Positions 36,707 through 54,524 of a DNA stretch of 64,000 nucleotides are shown here, one piece after another. Both the position numbers and the translations under genes were made by a program. This DNA is from Burkholderiales bacterium (GTDB lineage: Bacteria; Pseudomonadota; Gammaproteobacteria; Burkholderiales; Burkholderiaceae_C). Under the pieces are notes generated by a model that did no database searches, had not been told where the DNA came from, and worked only from the letters and a program-made list of their open reading frames with translations. How positions within the stretch are numbered: position 1 is the first letter of the stretch; each line of letters starts with the position of its first letter. The DNA is taken from the NCBI GenBank assembly GCA_016000265.1, contig JAECRL010000003.1, positions 186,001 to 250,000 on the forward strand. Reading direction: 5' to 3'.

Positions 36707-36782
36707 GGGTCGATAGCTCAGTCGGTAGAGCAGCGGACTTTTAATCCGTTGGTCGCGAGTTCGAGTCTCGCTCGACCCACCA
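36707..36782 (+). tRNA. tRNA-Lys (anticodon UUU)
   Basis: A 76-base cloverleaf with CCA encoded. The acceptor pair is GGGTCGA/TCGACCC, the D arm is GCTC/GAGC, the anticodon arm is GCGGA/TCCGT with loop CTTTTAA (anticodon TTT), and the T arm is GCGAG/CTCGC around TTCGAGT. Confidence 0.97.
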
Positions 36783-36831
36783 AGGCTTCCTTCGTTCGCG
36801 AAGGGCGCATGTTGCAGGAAGGTGAAACTTC

Positions 36832-36861
36832 TGGACAACATCAAAAATATCGGTATATAAT
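36832..36861 (+). promoter_or_regulatory. promoter of tRNA-Lys(CUU)
   Basis: TGGACA (36832-36837) and TATAAT (36856-36861) are separated by 18 bases, and the -10 ends 48 bases before the tRNA. It lies in the 127-base space between the two tRNA genes, so the second gene has its own promoter. Confidence 0.65.
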
Positions 36862-36909
36862 CGAATTCTTCGCTGTTGATCGGTTCGCTGAGAGGCAAAA
36901 GAAGAAATC

Positions 36910-36985
36910 GGGCTCTTAGCTCAGTTGGTAGAGCAGCGGACTCTTAATCCGTTGGTCGAGTGTTCGAGTCACTCAGGGCCCACCA
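36910..36985 (+). tRNA. tRNA-Lys (anticodon CUU)
   Basis: A 76-base cloverleaf with CCA encoded. The acceptor pair is GGGCTCT/AGGGCCC with one G-T pair, the anticodon loop is CTCTTAA (anticodon CTT), and the T arm is GAGTG/CACTC. The D and anticodon arms are almost identical to the UUU gene 200 bases upstream, while acceptor and T arms differ. Confidence 0.97.
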
Positions 36986-50206: not shown

Positions 50207-52015
50207 TCAGGGCTTGGCAGCAGGGGGCATCAGCCGAGGCTCGTCGACCTCCGTGGCCCGGTTGATCAGCATGAAGGTGGTGGCGCCGGCGACACCATCC
50301 GGCTTGAGGCCTTGAGACAGCTGAAAGGCCTGCAGCCGGCGCAGCAACTCGGCGTCAAAGCGCCCTGGCGTGGTGCTCGGTGTGTCGCTCGGTGCGCCGG
50401 TCTCCAGGCGCTCCCCCGCCAGGCCGGCGAGCTTGCCCGCCAGCCAGTCCACCACCGGGCCGCTCTGGCCTTGCTGGACCTTGGCCTTGTAGCCGGGAGG
50501 GGCCAGCCACAGGGTGGCGAAGTCACCTCGCCACAGCCCCGAGAGCACCGACAGGGGCACGCGCAAGCGGGTCTCGCCCATTTTCAGCCAGGCGTGCGCA
50601 CCTTGCACGCGGGTCAGCACGGCGTGGCGGGGCGCACCACTGCCGTCCTGCAGCACCAGCAGGGCCGGGCGATCCAGCTGCGTCAGCAGGCTCAGGCCCC
50701 CGCTGTTGCGAAAGCAGATCAGGTCCACGCGACGGGCCTGGGCGCAGGGCTCACCCGCGGCCAGCTCCTTGCCCTGGGGCCACAAGCTCGCCAGGTCATG
50801 CCAGGCTTGGGCCTCGTCGCGCGTGGCGGCCCGCATGACGCCCACGGCGTCGCTCAAGGACGGCTCGGCGACCTCGTCGGGGGCGACCGCGCGCGCGGCT
50901 TTCGCTGCGGCGGCTGCGACATCGCTCGCCGATGGCGCCGAGGCGGCCAGGGCCGGCGCGGCCACCTGACGGGCCAGGTCGCGCGCCGCCACCGCTTCGG
51001 GTGACCAGCGGCTCCAGGCGGCCAGTCCCAAGCCGCTCACGCTGATCGCGGTGCCCAGGCCGAACAGGGCCCAGGCCCAGCGCGGCCAGGATCGTGCCCC
51101 CGCCCATGAGCCGGTGTTGGCGAGCCAGCCGGTGTCGCCTGGCCTGGGCGGAGGTGACGCTTCGGTGCGTTTGTCAGCCAGGGGCATGCCGGCCTGGCCT
51201 TCGAAGACCTCGGCCGCGGCTTTGTCCACGATGCGTTTGTCGACCTTGGGCTTGCCCTCGGCGTACGCGCCCAGCAGGGCCCGATCACACAGCAGGTTGA
51301 TGCGGCGGGGCACGCCCTTGCTGAGCAGGTGCACGCGCTTGACCGCCGCCGAGTCGAACAAGGTGCCGCGTCGCAAGCCCGCTGTGTTCAGGCGGTGCTG
51401 GATGTATTGCGCGGTCTCGGCCTCGGTGAGCGCGTCCAGGTGAAAGCGCGCGATCACGCGTTGCGCCATCTGCTCCAGCTCGGGGCGCGCCAGCACCTGA
51501 CGCAGCTCCGGCTGCCCGATCAGCATGATCTGAAGCAGCTTGCGCTCGCTGGTCTCCAGGTTGGTCAGCAGCCGCAGCTGCTCCAGCACCTCCGCCGAGA
51601 GGTTCTGTGCCTCGTCGATGATGAGCACGTTGTTCTGCCCGACGGCGTGCGTCTTGAGCAGGTACTCGTTGAGCGCGTCCACGTGTGCCTTCAGCGAGGG
51701 CGCTTCACCAGGTGCGTGGGGCACCGGGATGCGGAACTCGTCGCAGATGGCCTGCAGCAGCTCGTGCGTGCTGAGCTTGGGGTTGAAGATGTAGGCGACG
51801 TTGCAGCGCCGCGGGATCTGCTCGAGGAAGCAGCGGCACACCGTGGTCTTGCCCGCGCCGATCTCGCCGGTCAACAGCACGAAGCCACCGCCCCCGCCCA
51901 CGCCGTAAAGCAAGTGGGCCAGCGCTTCGCGATGGCGCTCGCTCATGAAGAGGTAGCGCGGATCGGGCGCGATGGAGAAGGGCGCCTGTTTGAGTCCGAA
52001 ATACGCGGCGTACAT
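50207..52015 (-). CDS. gspA: general secretion pathway ATPase GspA (ExeA-like)
   Basis: A 602-residue protein. The opening MYAAYFGLKQAPFSIAPDPR and ATPase motifs GEIGAGKTTVCR and LIIDEAQNLSAEVLE mark the ExeA AAA domain (residues 1-270). One membrane helix lies at about 330-350. The periplasmic part ends in a peptidoglycan-binding domain (LLRRLQAFQLSQGLKPDGVA) at about 545-595. The GspA/GspB complex remodels peptidoglycan for type II secretin assembly. ATG 52015 is used; an in-frame start 14 codons upstream has no family character. It is divergent from the PIN-like gene. Confidence 0.95.
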   Translation of the reverse strand: MYAAYFGLKQAPFSIAPDPRYLFMSERHREALAHLLYGVGGGGGFVLLTGEIGAGKTTVCRCFLEQIPRRCNVAYIFNPKLSTHELLQAICDEFRIPVPHAPGEAPSLKAHVDALNEYLLKTHAVGQNNVLIIDEAQNLSAEVLEQLRLLTNLETSERKLLQIMLIGQPELRQVLARPELEQMAQRVIARFHLDALTEAETAQYIQHRLNTAGLRRGTLFDSAAVKRVHLLSKGVPRRINLLCDRALLGAYAEGKPKVDKRIVDKAAAEVFEGQAGMPLADKRTEASPPPRPGDTGWLANTGSWAGARSWPRWAWALFGLGTAISVSGLGLAAWSRWSPEAVAARDLARQVAAPALAASAPSASDVAAAAAKAARAVAPDEVAEPSLSDAVGVMRAATRDEAQAWHDLASLWPQGKELAAGEPCAQARRVDLICFRNSGGLSLLTQLDRPALLVLQDGSGAPRHAVLTRVQGAHAWLKMGETRLRVPLSVLSGLWRGDFATLWLAPPGYKAKVQQGQSGPVVDWLAGKLAGLAGERLETGAPSDTPSTTPGRFDAELLRRLQAFQLSQGLKPDGVAGATTFMLINRATEVDEPRLMPPAAKP

Positions 52016-52055
52016 GCCGCCAAGGATACCCCGCGGCACGAGGCAGAATCGGGGC

Positions 52056-52595
52056 ATGAAGGCGCCTTCTCAGTCCCCTGTCTTCGCTTCGCCCTGCGTG
52101 GTCGACACCAACGTCATCCTCGTGGCCAATGGCCAGCACCCGGGGGTCTCCGAGGCCTGCGTTCAGGCCTGCCGAGAGCGCCTGGCGCGGCTCATGTCGG
52201 GGGGGCGCATCGTGCTTGACGACGCCTTCGAGATCCTCCACGAATACCGCCACAAGACCGACCCGGAGCACGGGCGGGGGCCAGGCGACGCGTTCGTGCG
52301 CTGGGTGTTGCACCACGTCGACGACCCCAGCCGCGTGGAGCGCATCCACCTGGAGCCCGACCCGGTCTGGGGCTACGCCAGCTTTCCCCGCCAGGAGGCC
52401 CTGTGGTCGTTTGACGCCGCCGACCGCAAGTTCGTGGCCGTGGCCCGCGCTCACCCTGCGCACCCACCCATCCTGCAGGCGGCCGACTCGAAGTGGCTGG
52501 ACTGGTCCGCAGGCCTGGCCGCCGCGGGCGTCAGCGTGTGCTTCCTGTGCGAAGGCGAGGTCCGCGCTTTTCACCGCCACAAGTTCGGGCATTGA
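52056..52595 (+). CDS. PIN-like domain protein (putative ribonuclease)
   Basis: A 179-residue protein with the PIN opening CVVDTNVILVANG: the first acidic residue is Asp17 and the Thr/Asn pair follows. Further acidic positions expected in PIN nucleases are in DDAFEILHEYRH (Glu or Asp), SFDAADRKFVAVA and LQAADSKWLDW. It ends with EGEVRAFHRHKFGH. The pattern is VapC-like in outline but longer, and no VapB-type antitoxin gene precedes it. The next gene, an RNA ligase, starts 12 bases after its stop, so the two are almost certainly one transcript. Nuclease activity is inference from the acidic residues. The ATG at 52056 begins just before the PIN strand. Confidence 0.72.
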   Translation: MKAPSQSPVFASPCVVDTNVILVANGQHPGVSEACVQACRERLARLMSGGRIVLDDAFEILHEYRHKTDPEHGRGPGDAFVRWVLHHVDDPSRVERIHLEPDPVWGYASFPRQEALWSFDAADRKFVAVARAHPAHPPILQAADSKWLDWSAGLAAAGVSVCFLCEGEVRAFHRHKFGH

Positions 52596-52607
52596 CCCCT
52601 TCACCCC

Positions 52608-53291
52608 ATGCACGACTTCTTTCGTTTCCCCCACACGCCCCACCTGGCCTGGCTGGCCGCGGGCGCGCCGCGCGACGACAAGGTGCTGTCGCCCGACGAA
52701 GCACGGGCCCTGCTGGCTCACCCCGTCGTGGTCGAAGAAAAGCTCGACGGCGCGAACATGGGCATCTCGTTTTCAGCCGAGGGCGTGCTGCACGTGCAGA
52801 ACCGCGGGCAGTACCTCAACCGACCCCATGGCGGGCAGTTCGCGCGGCTTGACGAGTGGCTGGCCATCCGGGAAGACGACCTCCGCGACGCCCTGGGCGA
52901 GCGGCTCATGCTGTTCGGGGAGTGGTGCGCCGCTCAGCACTCGCTGGACTACGCGAGCTTGCCGGACTGGTTCCTCGCCTTCGACGTCTACGACCGCGTC
53001 GAGCGGCGTTTCTGGAGCACGCGGCGTCGCAACGAACTCGCCGAGCTCATCGGCCTGCGCCAGGTGCCGCGCGTGAGCTCGGGCCTGACCACCCTGGCCG
53101 AGCTGACCGCCTGGGTGCAGTCCCACCGCAGCCACTACCGTGAAGGCGCGCTCGAAGGCGTCGTGGTGCGGCACGAAGACGCCGACTGGCTGCTGCAGCG
53201 AGCCAAGCTGGTGCGCGCCGACTTCGTCCAAAGCATCGAGGAGCATTGGCGCAGCCGCGCCCTTCAGTGGAATCGCATCGCCTGGGACTGA
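52608..53291 (+). CDS. RNA ligase (Rnl2-like nucleotidyltransferase domain)
   Basis: A 227-residue minimal nucleic-acid ligase. Motif I is EEKLDGANMGI with the adenylated Lys at residue 45; motif Ia is around QNRGQYLNRP; motif III is LMLFGEWCAAQHS; motif IV is EGVVVRHE; motif V is RAKLVRADF. This set matches the RNA_ligase (T4 Rnl2-like) family. Rnl2 has an extra C-terminal domain for nick recognition; here only about 30 residues follow motif V. It lies 12 bases after a PIN-like gene, suggesting a cut-and-seal RNA repair or editing function. The substrate is unknown. It is convergent with an M20 hydrolase gene. Confidence 0.85.
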   Translation: MHDFFRFPHTPHLAWLAAGAPRDDKVLSPDEARALLAHPVVVEEKLDGANMGISFSAEGVLHVQNRGQYLNRPHGGQFARLDEWLAIREDDLRDALGERLMLFGEWCAAQHSLDYASLPDWFLAFDVYDRVERRFWSTRRRNELAELIGLRQVPRVSSGLTTLAELTAWVQSHRSHYREGALEGVVVRHEDADWLLQRAKLVRADFVQSIEEHWRSRALQWNRIAWD

Positions 53292-53309: not shown

Positions 53310-54524
53310 TCAGGGCTGCGCCAGCCAGCGCCGCGCCAGCTTGACCCACAGCGTCGCGCCCAGCGGGATGAGCTGGTCGTTGAAGTCGTAGCTGGGGTTG
53401 TGCAGCGTGCACGGGCCCAGGCCGTGGCCGCCTTCGCGGTGCGTGCCGTCGCCGTTGCCGATCACGAAGTACGCGCCCGGCTTGCCTTGCAGGAAGAAGC
53501 TGAAGTCCTCGGCGCCCATGGTGGGTTCGAACTCCTGCACCCGCTCGGTGCCCACCAGCTCGGCCATCACCTCGCGCACGAAGGCGGCCTCGGCGGCGTG
53601 GTTGACGGTGGGCGGGTAGTTGCGGCTGAACTCGAAGTCCGCCTGCGCGCCGTGGGCCGCACACAGGTGCTGCGTCATCTCGCGCATGCGTTGCTCGATG
53701 AGGTCGAGCGTGTCGGTCGTGAAGGTGCGCACCGTGCCTTGCATCACCACCGACTCGGGGATGACGTTGGTGGCCTCGCCGGCCTGGATCATCGTCACCG
53801 AGATCACCCCGGTCTCCACCGGGCGCATGTTGCGCGTCAGGATGGTCTGGAAGCCCTGCACCAGCTGGCAGGCCACGGGCACCGGGTCGATGCCCATGTG
53901 CGGCATGGCCCCGTGGCAGCCCTTGCCGCGGATGGTGATGTGGAACTCGTTGCTGGAGGCGAAGCACGGGCCGTTGCGCACGGCGAAGGTGCCCATCGGC
54001 ATGCCCGGCCAGTTGTGCATGCCGAAGATCGCGTCCATGGGGAAGCGCTCGAACAGGCCGTCCTTCATCATCTCGCGCGCGCCGCCACCGCCTTCCTCGG
54101 CGGGCTGGAACACCAGGTAGACGGTGCCGTCGAAGTCCCGCTGGGCGGCCAGCGACTGCGCGGCGGCCAGCAGCATGGCGACGTGGCCATCGTGGCCGCA
54201 GGCGTGCATCTTGCCGTGGTGCCGGCTGGCGTGCGCGAAGGTGTTGTGCTCGGTCATGGGCAGGGCGTCCATGTCGGCGCGCAGGCCGATGGCGCGTGCG
54301 CCGGGCCGCCCCTGGATCACGCCCACCACGCCCGTGCGACCCAAGCCGCGGTGCACCTCGATGCCCCAGCTCGTCAGCGTGCGTGCCACCAGTTCGGCCG
54401 TGCGCTCTTCCTGGAAGCACAGCTCGGGGTGCGCGTGGATGTCGCGTCGGATGGCGCGAATCGCCTCGGCCTCATCCAGCAAATCAGGCAGGACGATGCT
54501 GGGCAGGGCGAAGGAAGCGGTCAT
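53310..54524 (-). CDS. M20-family amidohydrolase (hippurate hydrolase/aminoacylase type)
   Basis: A 404-residue metallo-amidohydrolase. Marks of the M20D group in order: IRRDIHAHPELCFQEERTAE, GLRADMDALPM, the metal site MHACGHDGHVAMLLAAA, YLVFQPAEEGGGGA, then the dimerisation domain and GAEDFSFFLQGKPGAYFVIG. All expected ligands (Cys, His, Glu, His, His) seem present. It would cleave an N-acyl amino acid. It is next to amt, on the opposite strand, which hints at nitrogen scavenging. No signal peptide is evident. Confidence 0.93.
   Translation of the reverse strand: MTASFALPSIVLPDLLDEAEAIRAIRRDIHAHPELCFQEERTAELVARTLTSWGIEVHRGLGRTGVVGVIQGRPGARAIGLRADMDALPMTEHNTFAHASRHHGKMHACGHDGHVAMLLAAAQSLAAQRDFDGTVYLVFQPAEEGGGGAREMMKDGLFERFPMDAIFGMHNWPGMPMGTFAVRNGPCFASSNEFHITIRGKGCHGAMPHMGIDPVPVACQLVQGFQTILTRNMRPVETGVISVTMIQAGEATNVIPESVVMQGTVRTFTTDTLDLIEQRMREMTQHLCAAHGAQADFEFSRNYPPTVNHAAEAAFVREVMAELVGTERVQEFEPTMGAEDFSFFLQGKPGAYFVIGNGDGTHREGGHGLGPCTLHNPSYDFNDQLIPLGATLWVKLARRWLAQP

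Follow-up and report, generated by a model that had tools for sequence, protein, structure and literature searches.

PARIS combines an OLD-ABC ATPase, AriA, with a TOPRIM nuclease, AriB, and AriB is reported to leave 5'-phosphate and 3'-hydroxyl ends (PMC12409363). OLD-ABC ATPases paired with PIN endoRNases are reported around BREX in a second article (PMC12839542), and PADLOC-DB 2.0.0 includes a PIN protein, HEC-03A, together with an ATPase, HEC-03B, under the candidate anti-phage family HEC-03 (Hma-embedded candidate 3); the association of such an ATPase with a PIN protein is therefore already known. Here we describe a PIN-like nuclease gene followed directly by a gene for a minimal RNA ligase in DNA of a Burkholderiales bacterium (assembly GCA_016000265.1, contig JAECRL010000003.1). 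The stretch that was analysed, 64 kb in length, is referred to as the window.

The locus resembles several known systems in part. Its PIN protein matches HEC-03A and the ATPase encoded upstream in relatives is of the HEC-03B kind, but the window has no such ATPase, and the ligase, which 76/80 examined relatives possess, matches no PADLOC model. The ATPase of these relatives is related to OLD/AriA (the Azotobacter protein matches HEC-03B at E 2.7e-132 and AriA at 4.3e-24), as in PARIS. In contrast to PARIS, the nuclease is PIN rather than TOPRIM and a ligase gene is added; with no AriA-like ATPase found in the window and a nuclease unlike AriB, the locus was not assigned to that system. The OLD-ABC/PIN pairs of PMC12839542 share the pairing theme, and the term 'RNA ligase' is absent from the text of that article. 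As in VapBC, a PIN fold with acidic residues is present and VapC structures are the best matches of the PIN model, but the protein is 179 amino acids (aa) long, has no antitoxin gene in front and is partnered by a ligase. Rnl2-type ligases (T4 Rnl2, the Naegleria ligase and TbREL1) share the nucleotidyltransferase domain and the KxDG motif, whereas the protein here has 227 aa, comprises the nucleotidyltransferase domain alone and shows 14-21% identity to them in structural alignments. The bacterial cut-and-repair systems RtcB2-PrfH and Pnkp1-Rnl-Hen1 resemble our locus in the ligase-based rescue of toxin-cut RNA (PMC9223846, PMC4411300). They deal with a foreign cutter and rely on end-healing enzymes or RtcB, whereas in our locus the genes for cutter and ligase are neighbours.

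The PIN-ligase unit and its ATPase in relatives

An earlier note on this DNA, made from the sequence alone, had read the locus as a two-gene operon of a PIN-like nuclease, lacking an antitoxin gene, and a minimal RNA ligase, and had proposed hidden Markov model searches of both proteins. In these searches, the PIN protein matched HEC-03A (E 3.2e-18, residues 14-166 on model positions 3-152 of 159) and missed the gathering score of Pfam PIN_3 (17.6 bits vs 27). The ligase matched PF09414 above its gathering score (118.6 bits vs 27), and neither this ligase nor that of Azotobacter matched a PADLOC model. A confident structure model of the PIN protein has a predicted PIN fold, with VapC toxins as the closest solved structures. 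Of the acidic residues that we take to be metal ligands, D17 is kept in 87/88 aligned rows and E63, D120, D123 and D144 in all 88. In the ligase, by our presumed motif assignments, the nucleotidyltransferase residues K45, D47, G48 and E105 are kept in 82/82 rows and E183 and K200 in 81/82, the remaining row being gapped. The ligase model aligns only up to T4 Rnl2 residue 233, the C-terminal domain of T4 Rnl2 being absent, and residues 207-227 have a predicted local distance difference test score below 50. Distant minimal-ligase relatives (25-36% identity) occur on phage contigs (L167-L180; phage records H33-H40), and no PIN match was found in these loci or records.

When one genome was scanned for each species, 156 loci with PIN relatives emerged, of which the best 80, close to the query, were examined as named loci. 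The ligase gene lies directly 3' of the PIN gene in 76/80, with a median gap of 36 nucleotides, and an OLD/AriA-like ATPase gene (HEC-03B) lies upstream of PIN in 65/80. Sixty-one loci carry ATPase, PIN and ligase, 15 carry PIN and ligase, four carry ATPase and PIN, and none carries PIN alone; in one locus of the PIN-ligase class, which was left out of the two-gene set, the contig ends 229 bases upstream (L105), and in one of the ATPase-PIN class it ends 579 bases downstream (L069). The ATPase match lies 1.4 kb upstream in L074 and is cut by the contig end in L063. The PIN-like fold with its acidic residues, the nucleotidyltransferase-only ligase and the conserved adjacency of the two genes were thus borne out, as was the lack of an antitoxin gene directly 5' of PIN among the listed open reading frames (ORFs) of at least 60 aa, where the upstream gene is the divergent gspA. 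Of the two outcomes that the note had named as refuting it, rare adjacency in relatives and a first protein without a PIN fold or conserved acidic residues, neither was observed. What the reading as a two-gene operon missed is that the unit mostly has three genes, with an OLD/AriA-like ATPase gene as the first.

All four ATPases scanned matched HEC-03B best, then NsnB, PDC-M55A and AriA. Records of the three-gene form, many of them metagenome bins, are labelled Pseudomonadota, Verrucomicrobiota, Myxococcota, Acidobacteriota, Planctomycetota, Nitrospirota and Thermodesulfobacteriota; the form also occurs on a Rhodococcus plasmid, and both PIN loci in the viral collection carry all three genes. 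Among 72,556 plasmid records, 12 have a PIN relative, with a ligase match no more than 50 bases after PIN in eight. A ligase match was found in 25 plasmid records, nine of which also have a PIN match, and among the 20 plasmid ligase matches listed the PIN-less ones are at most 36% identical. A DUF3696-type ATPase gene lies directly upstream in 5/5 plasmid regions inspected, one copy (L004) being annotated as two overlapping pieces. Three Acinetobacter soli plasmids have PIN but no ligase match; on the one of these that was inspected (L004:5998-7293), an HNH endonuclease gene takes the ligase's place after ATPase and PIN, and this variant adjoins a DISARM-like methylase gene. On an Aeromonas caviae plasmid (NZ_AP022111.1, 67773-70366), the ligase match is split in two, the listed piece lying 1.6 kb from PIN, and the gene looks interrupted.

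In an even sample of the class (370 genomes, up to nine PIN and seven ligase candidates scored per genome), a PIN gene was found in five genomes, the window's included, and a ligase beside it in four of the five, which makes the system rare (~1% of this sample). The four PIN genomes other than the window's all have the ATPase, and one of them (G311) has ATPase and PIN without ligase. The ligase appears to be a third HEC-03 component that had escaped notice.

The two-gene form in the window's genus

In the window's genus, PIN and ligase occur together in 22/42 genomes, invariably side by side, and both are missing from the other 20. No ATPase was seen in the 1.5 kb upstream of the pair in 17 of the 22. 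A full ATPase gene precedes the pair in one genome (G004), and a shortened HEC-03B-like ATPase lies upstream of PIN and ligase in four (G007, G013, G038 and G041; loci L032-L035). The shortened ATPase of G013 (L032:668-1504, 278 aa) has the N-terminal P-loop and C-terminal parts, and its middle is gone. The pair without the putative sensor ATPase was seen in the window's own genus alone. Among the 17 two-gene genomes, 13 have no HEC-03B match and four have weak ones (best 1.2e-11); in the window, tblastn with three such ATPases as queries found no HEC-03B-type ATPase at 1e-4, and elsewhere in the genome there was just a weak hit.

The 14 named two-gene loci (L040-L053) are 14 of the 17 ATPase-less genomes, so these two counts are not independent. 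Thirteen of the 14 occupy the same chromosomal site, in the order gspA, pair, M20, and L048 is located elsewhere; beyond this site, gspB is present in all 13 and cphA in 11/13. Several two-gene loci have other DNA between ligase and M20, and one (L043) has a gene between gspA and PIN. The empty site, with gspA directly beside M20 and neither PIN nor ligase, was found in 6/30 M20 loci (G001, G017, G025, G029, G030 and G034); for other M20 loci lacking the pair, flanks of 1.5 kb are too short to decide on the state of the site.

All 15 two-gene rows, that of the window among them, retain the PIN acidic residues and the ligase's nucleotidyltransferase residues. Ratios of nonsynonymous to synonymous substitution rates in seven two-gene pairs, which share members, were 0.03-0.38 for PIN and 0.04-0.19 for the ligase, and both genes are under purifying selection between close pairs. 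PIN evolves faster than the ligase, with a median tree distance 1.3 times as large. In an unrooted quick tree of the ligase, the two-gene rows fall on one side of a single branch (Shimodaira-Hasegawa-like approximate likelihood ratio support 97). Since the three-gene form is widespread, loss of the ATPase is the simpler reading.

The pair in the window is real, confirming the first observation, and its features are collected in Table 1. The longest gspA frame has a start codon that overlaps that of PIN (window 52013-52058); a shorter gspA start is likely, and ~40 bases would then separate the two divergent genes. An ORF on the PIN strand (51329-52219), which lies antisense to gspA and extends into the PIN gene, was taken as spurious. 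At 36707-36985, 15 kb from the pair, are two genes for tRNA-Lys, with anticodons ttt and ctt; nothing ties them to the PIN-ligase locus. Both PARIS and PrrC are known to act on tRNA-Lys.

Table 1. Features of the PIN-ligase locus in window positions; metal-ligand and motif roles are those we presume for these residues.
Feature	Position	Strand	Conservation or basis
PIN-like nuclease gene, HEC-03A-like, 179 aa, putative start codon	52056..52595	+	
Asp17 of DTNV, putative metal ligand	52104..52106	+	D in 15/15 two-gene rows and 72/73 other rows, one gap
Glu63, putative PIN metal ligand	52242..52244	+	E in 88/88 rows
Asp120 to Asp123 (DxxD), putative PIN metal ligands	52413..52424	+	D120 and D123 in 88/88 rows
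Asp144 (D-S-K-W), putative PIN metal ligand	52485..52487	+	D in 88/88 rows
Minimal RNA ligase gene, PF09414, 227 aa, nucleotidyltransferase domain alone	52608..53291	+	
Lys45 of KLDG, predicted covalent adenosine monophosphate site	52740..52742	+	K in 82/82 rows
Glu183-Gly184, motif IV-like	53154..53159	+	Kept in 81/82 rows, one gapped
Lys200, motif V-like	53205..53207	+	Kept in 81/82 rows, one gapped
gspA-like gene (AAA_22), left boundary, outside cassette	50207..52057	-	Pfam; same side in 13/14 named two-gene loci
M20 peptidase gene, right boundary, outside cassette	53310..54524	-	Pfam; same side in 13/14 named two-gene loci

Proposed mechanism and competing explanations

Because the two genes are adjacent in nearly all relatives examined, usually behind an ATPase gene, their products likely act on one and the same cellular RNA, the first cutting and the second resealing it, and the pair most likely descends from the three-gene candidate anti-phage system HEC-03 minus its ATPase; we give this combined reading about an even chance of being right. 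PIN nucleases hydrolyse RNA in a metal-dependent reaction that, as for VapC, yields 3'-hydroxyl and 5'-phosphate ends, which match the ends left by AriB. ATP-dependent Rnl2-type ligases join 3'-hydroxyl and 5'-phosphate ends. Since the product of the one class is the substrate of the other, cutting would be reversible without end repair by a kinase or phosphatase. In the three-gene form, the ATPase would hold the PIN protein and release or activate it upon infection. The PIN protein may then cut a structured RNA by metal-dependent hydrolysis, tRNA being the best guess by analogy with PARIS and PrrC, and the ligase would rejoin the resulting ends, so that stray cuts would be mended immediately and the cell could recover. 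In the window's genus, cutter and sealer alone would be left, and the ligase would likely provide the restraint. The predicted ligase is probably a built-in antidote. That PIN never occurs without ATPase or ligase among the 80 loci fits two layers of restraint, with few evolutionary events behind this pattern. We propose more tentatively that the RNA ligase may serve as an antitoxin, an antidote that undoes damage rather than blocking the toxin, in a unit that was kept on the chromosome after the sensor ATPase of a three-gene anti-phage system had been lost.

Several observations weigh against cutting and resealing by a remnant of HEC-03. Foldseek with the PIN model gave no PDB match below E 0.001, and the 80 loci were chosen as the best among 156 and lie close to the query. 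At least six loci have ATPase and PIN without a ligase (L081, L086, L101, L036, L004 and L162), which shows that the three-gene form can do without it. Ligases of this family also occur more widely than PIN: among the 11 class-sample genomes with a ligase match, seven have no PIN match, and all seven of these ligases match more weakly (best 1.2e-56, partial). In a quick tree of PIN, the same two-gene split has a support of just 40, leaving a single origin unsupported. PIN and ligase distances correlate only moderately over 81 loci, the Rhodococcus row excluded (Spearman 0.43); none of 2000 permutations was as high, and the coefficient is 0.62 over the 66 loci without two-gene rows. The ligase is also without the C-terminal domain found in T4 Rnl2. 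Truncated T4 Rnl2 is poor at sealing 5'-phosphate ends, so our protein may depend on a partner for full ligation. The truncated T4 enzyme is used with pre-adenylated ends (PMC12409363).

Some neighbours of the three-gene loci fit a defence role, with a similar caution. Simple-rule calls around 23/61 three-gene loci gave 138 flanking ORFs, from which 58 were hand-picked, leaning to near and long ones and without a matched control, and these match 107 PADLOC families at 1e-20. Among the 25 of the 107 families listed, DISARM DrmMI and type IIG models match three proteins, type III methylase two, and type I methylase, PsyrT and PDC-S28 one each. Methylases can match such defence models outside complete systems.

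A different explanation, which we consider unlikely, is that the pair has been domesticated for housekeeping and processes or repairs one cellular RNA (tRNA, rRNA or stress-cut RNA), its defence role gone. Its fixed chromosomal site between housekeeping genes, the purifying selection on both genes and the scarcity of HEC-03B matches in two-gene genomes agree with this, as does the result that none of the five genes adjoining the pair in the window matches PADLOC at 1e-6; however, the pair is absent from 20/42 genus genomes and 6/30 fetched sites are empty, which makes it dispensable. It is decidedly doubtful that the ligase acts offensively or shapes the RNA, joining PIN-cut pieces into circles, into wrong joins or into edited RNA, with the product rather than repair being what matters: the loci that keep ATPase and PIN without a ligase better fit an accessory or antidote than an effector, and no RNA substrate is tied to the locus. 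Very improbable is a split HEC-03 in which PIN is still partnered in trans, for example by an NsnB-like AAA_15/AAA_21 ATPase on contig 9 of the same genome (G000, C9:63086-64693; NsnB 1.6e-39, HEC-03B 3.4e-28), as that ATPase fits NsnB better and has its own 371-aa gene downstream, and among the two-gene genomes HEC-03B is matched next best in G005, at 3.5e-7. The 371-aa gene follows this ATPase after 3 bases and has no Pfam or PADLOC match at 1e-6 (L158:3039-5816; G000 contig 9, 63038-65815).

Novelty and implications

The earlier note knew of no named pair of PIN and Rnl2-like proteins. For the ligase this stands, as no description of it was found; PIN with the ATPase, on the other hand, is already HEC-03A/HEC-03B in PADLOC, and OLD-ABC with PIN is in print (PMC12839542). 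Our literature search found no text joining PIN, RNA ligase and this ATPase; the HEC preprint or an ABC-ATPase survey, both beyond the search, may describe the triad. Three things are apparently undescribed: that the ligase is regularly the third gene, that a chromosomal derivative without the sensor sits at a fixed site, and that the ATPase exists in a shortened form. The earlier interpretation of the pair as a cut-and-seal system is supported in part.

To our knowledge, when tRNA-targeting defences cut RNA, any repair falls to the phage or to unlinked host enzymes. If cutting and resealing by the pair is true, a defence operon would carry its own ligase and need no healing step, which would make an abortive defence reversible. 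The sensor-less form would then show how an effector can persist without its ATPase, and the pair offers a small, testable two-protein system.
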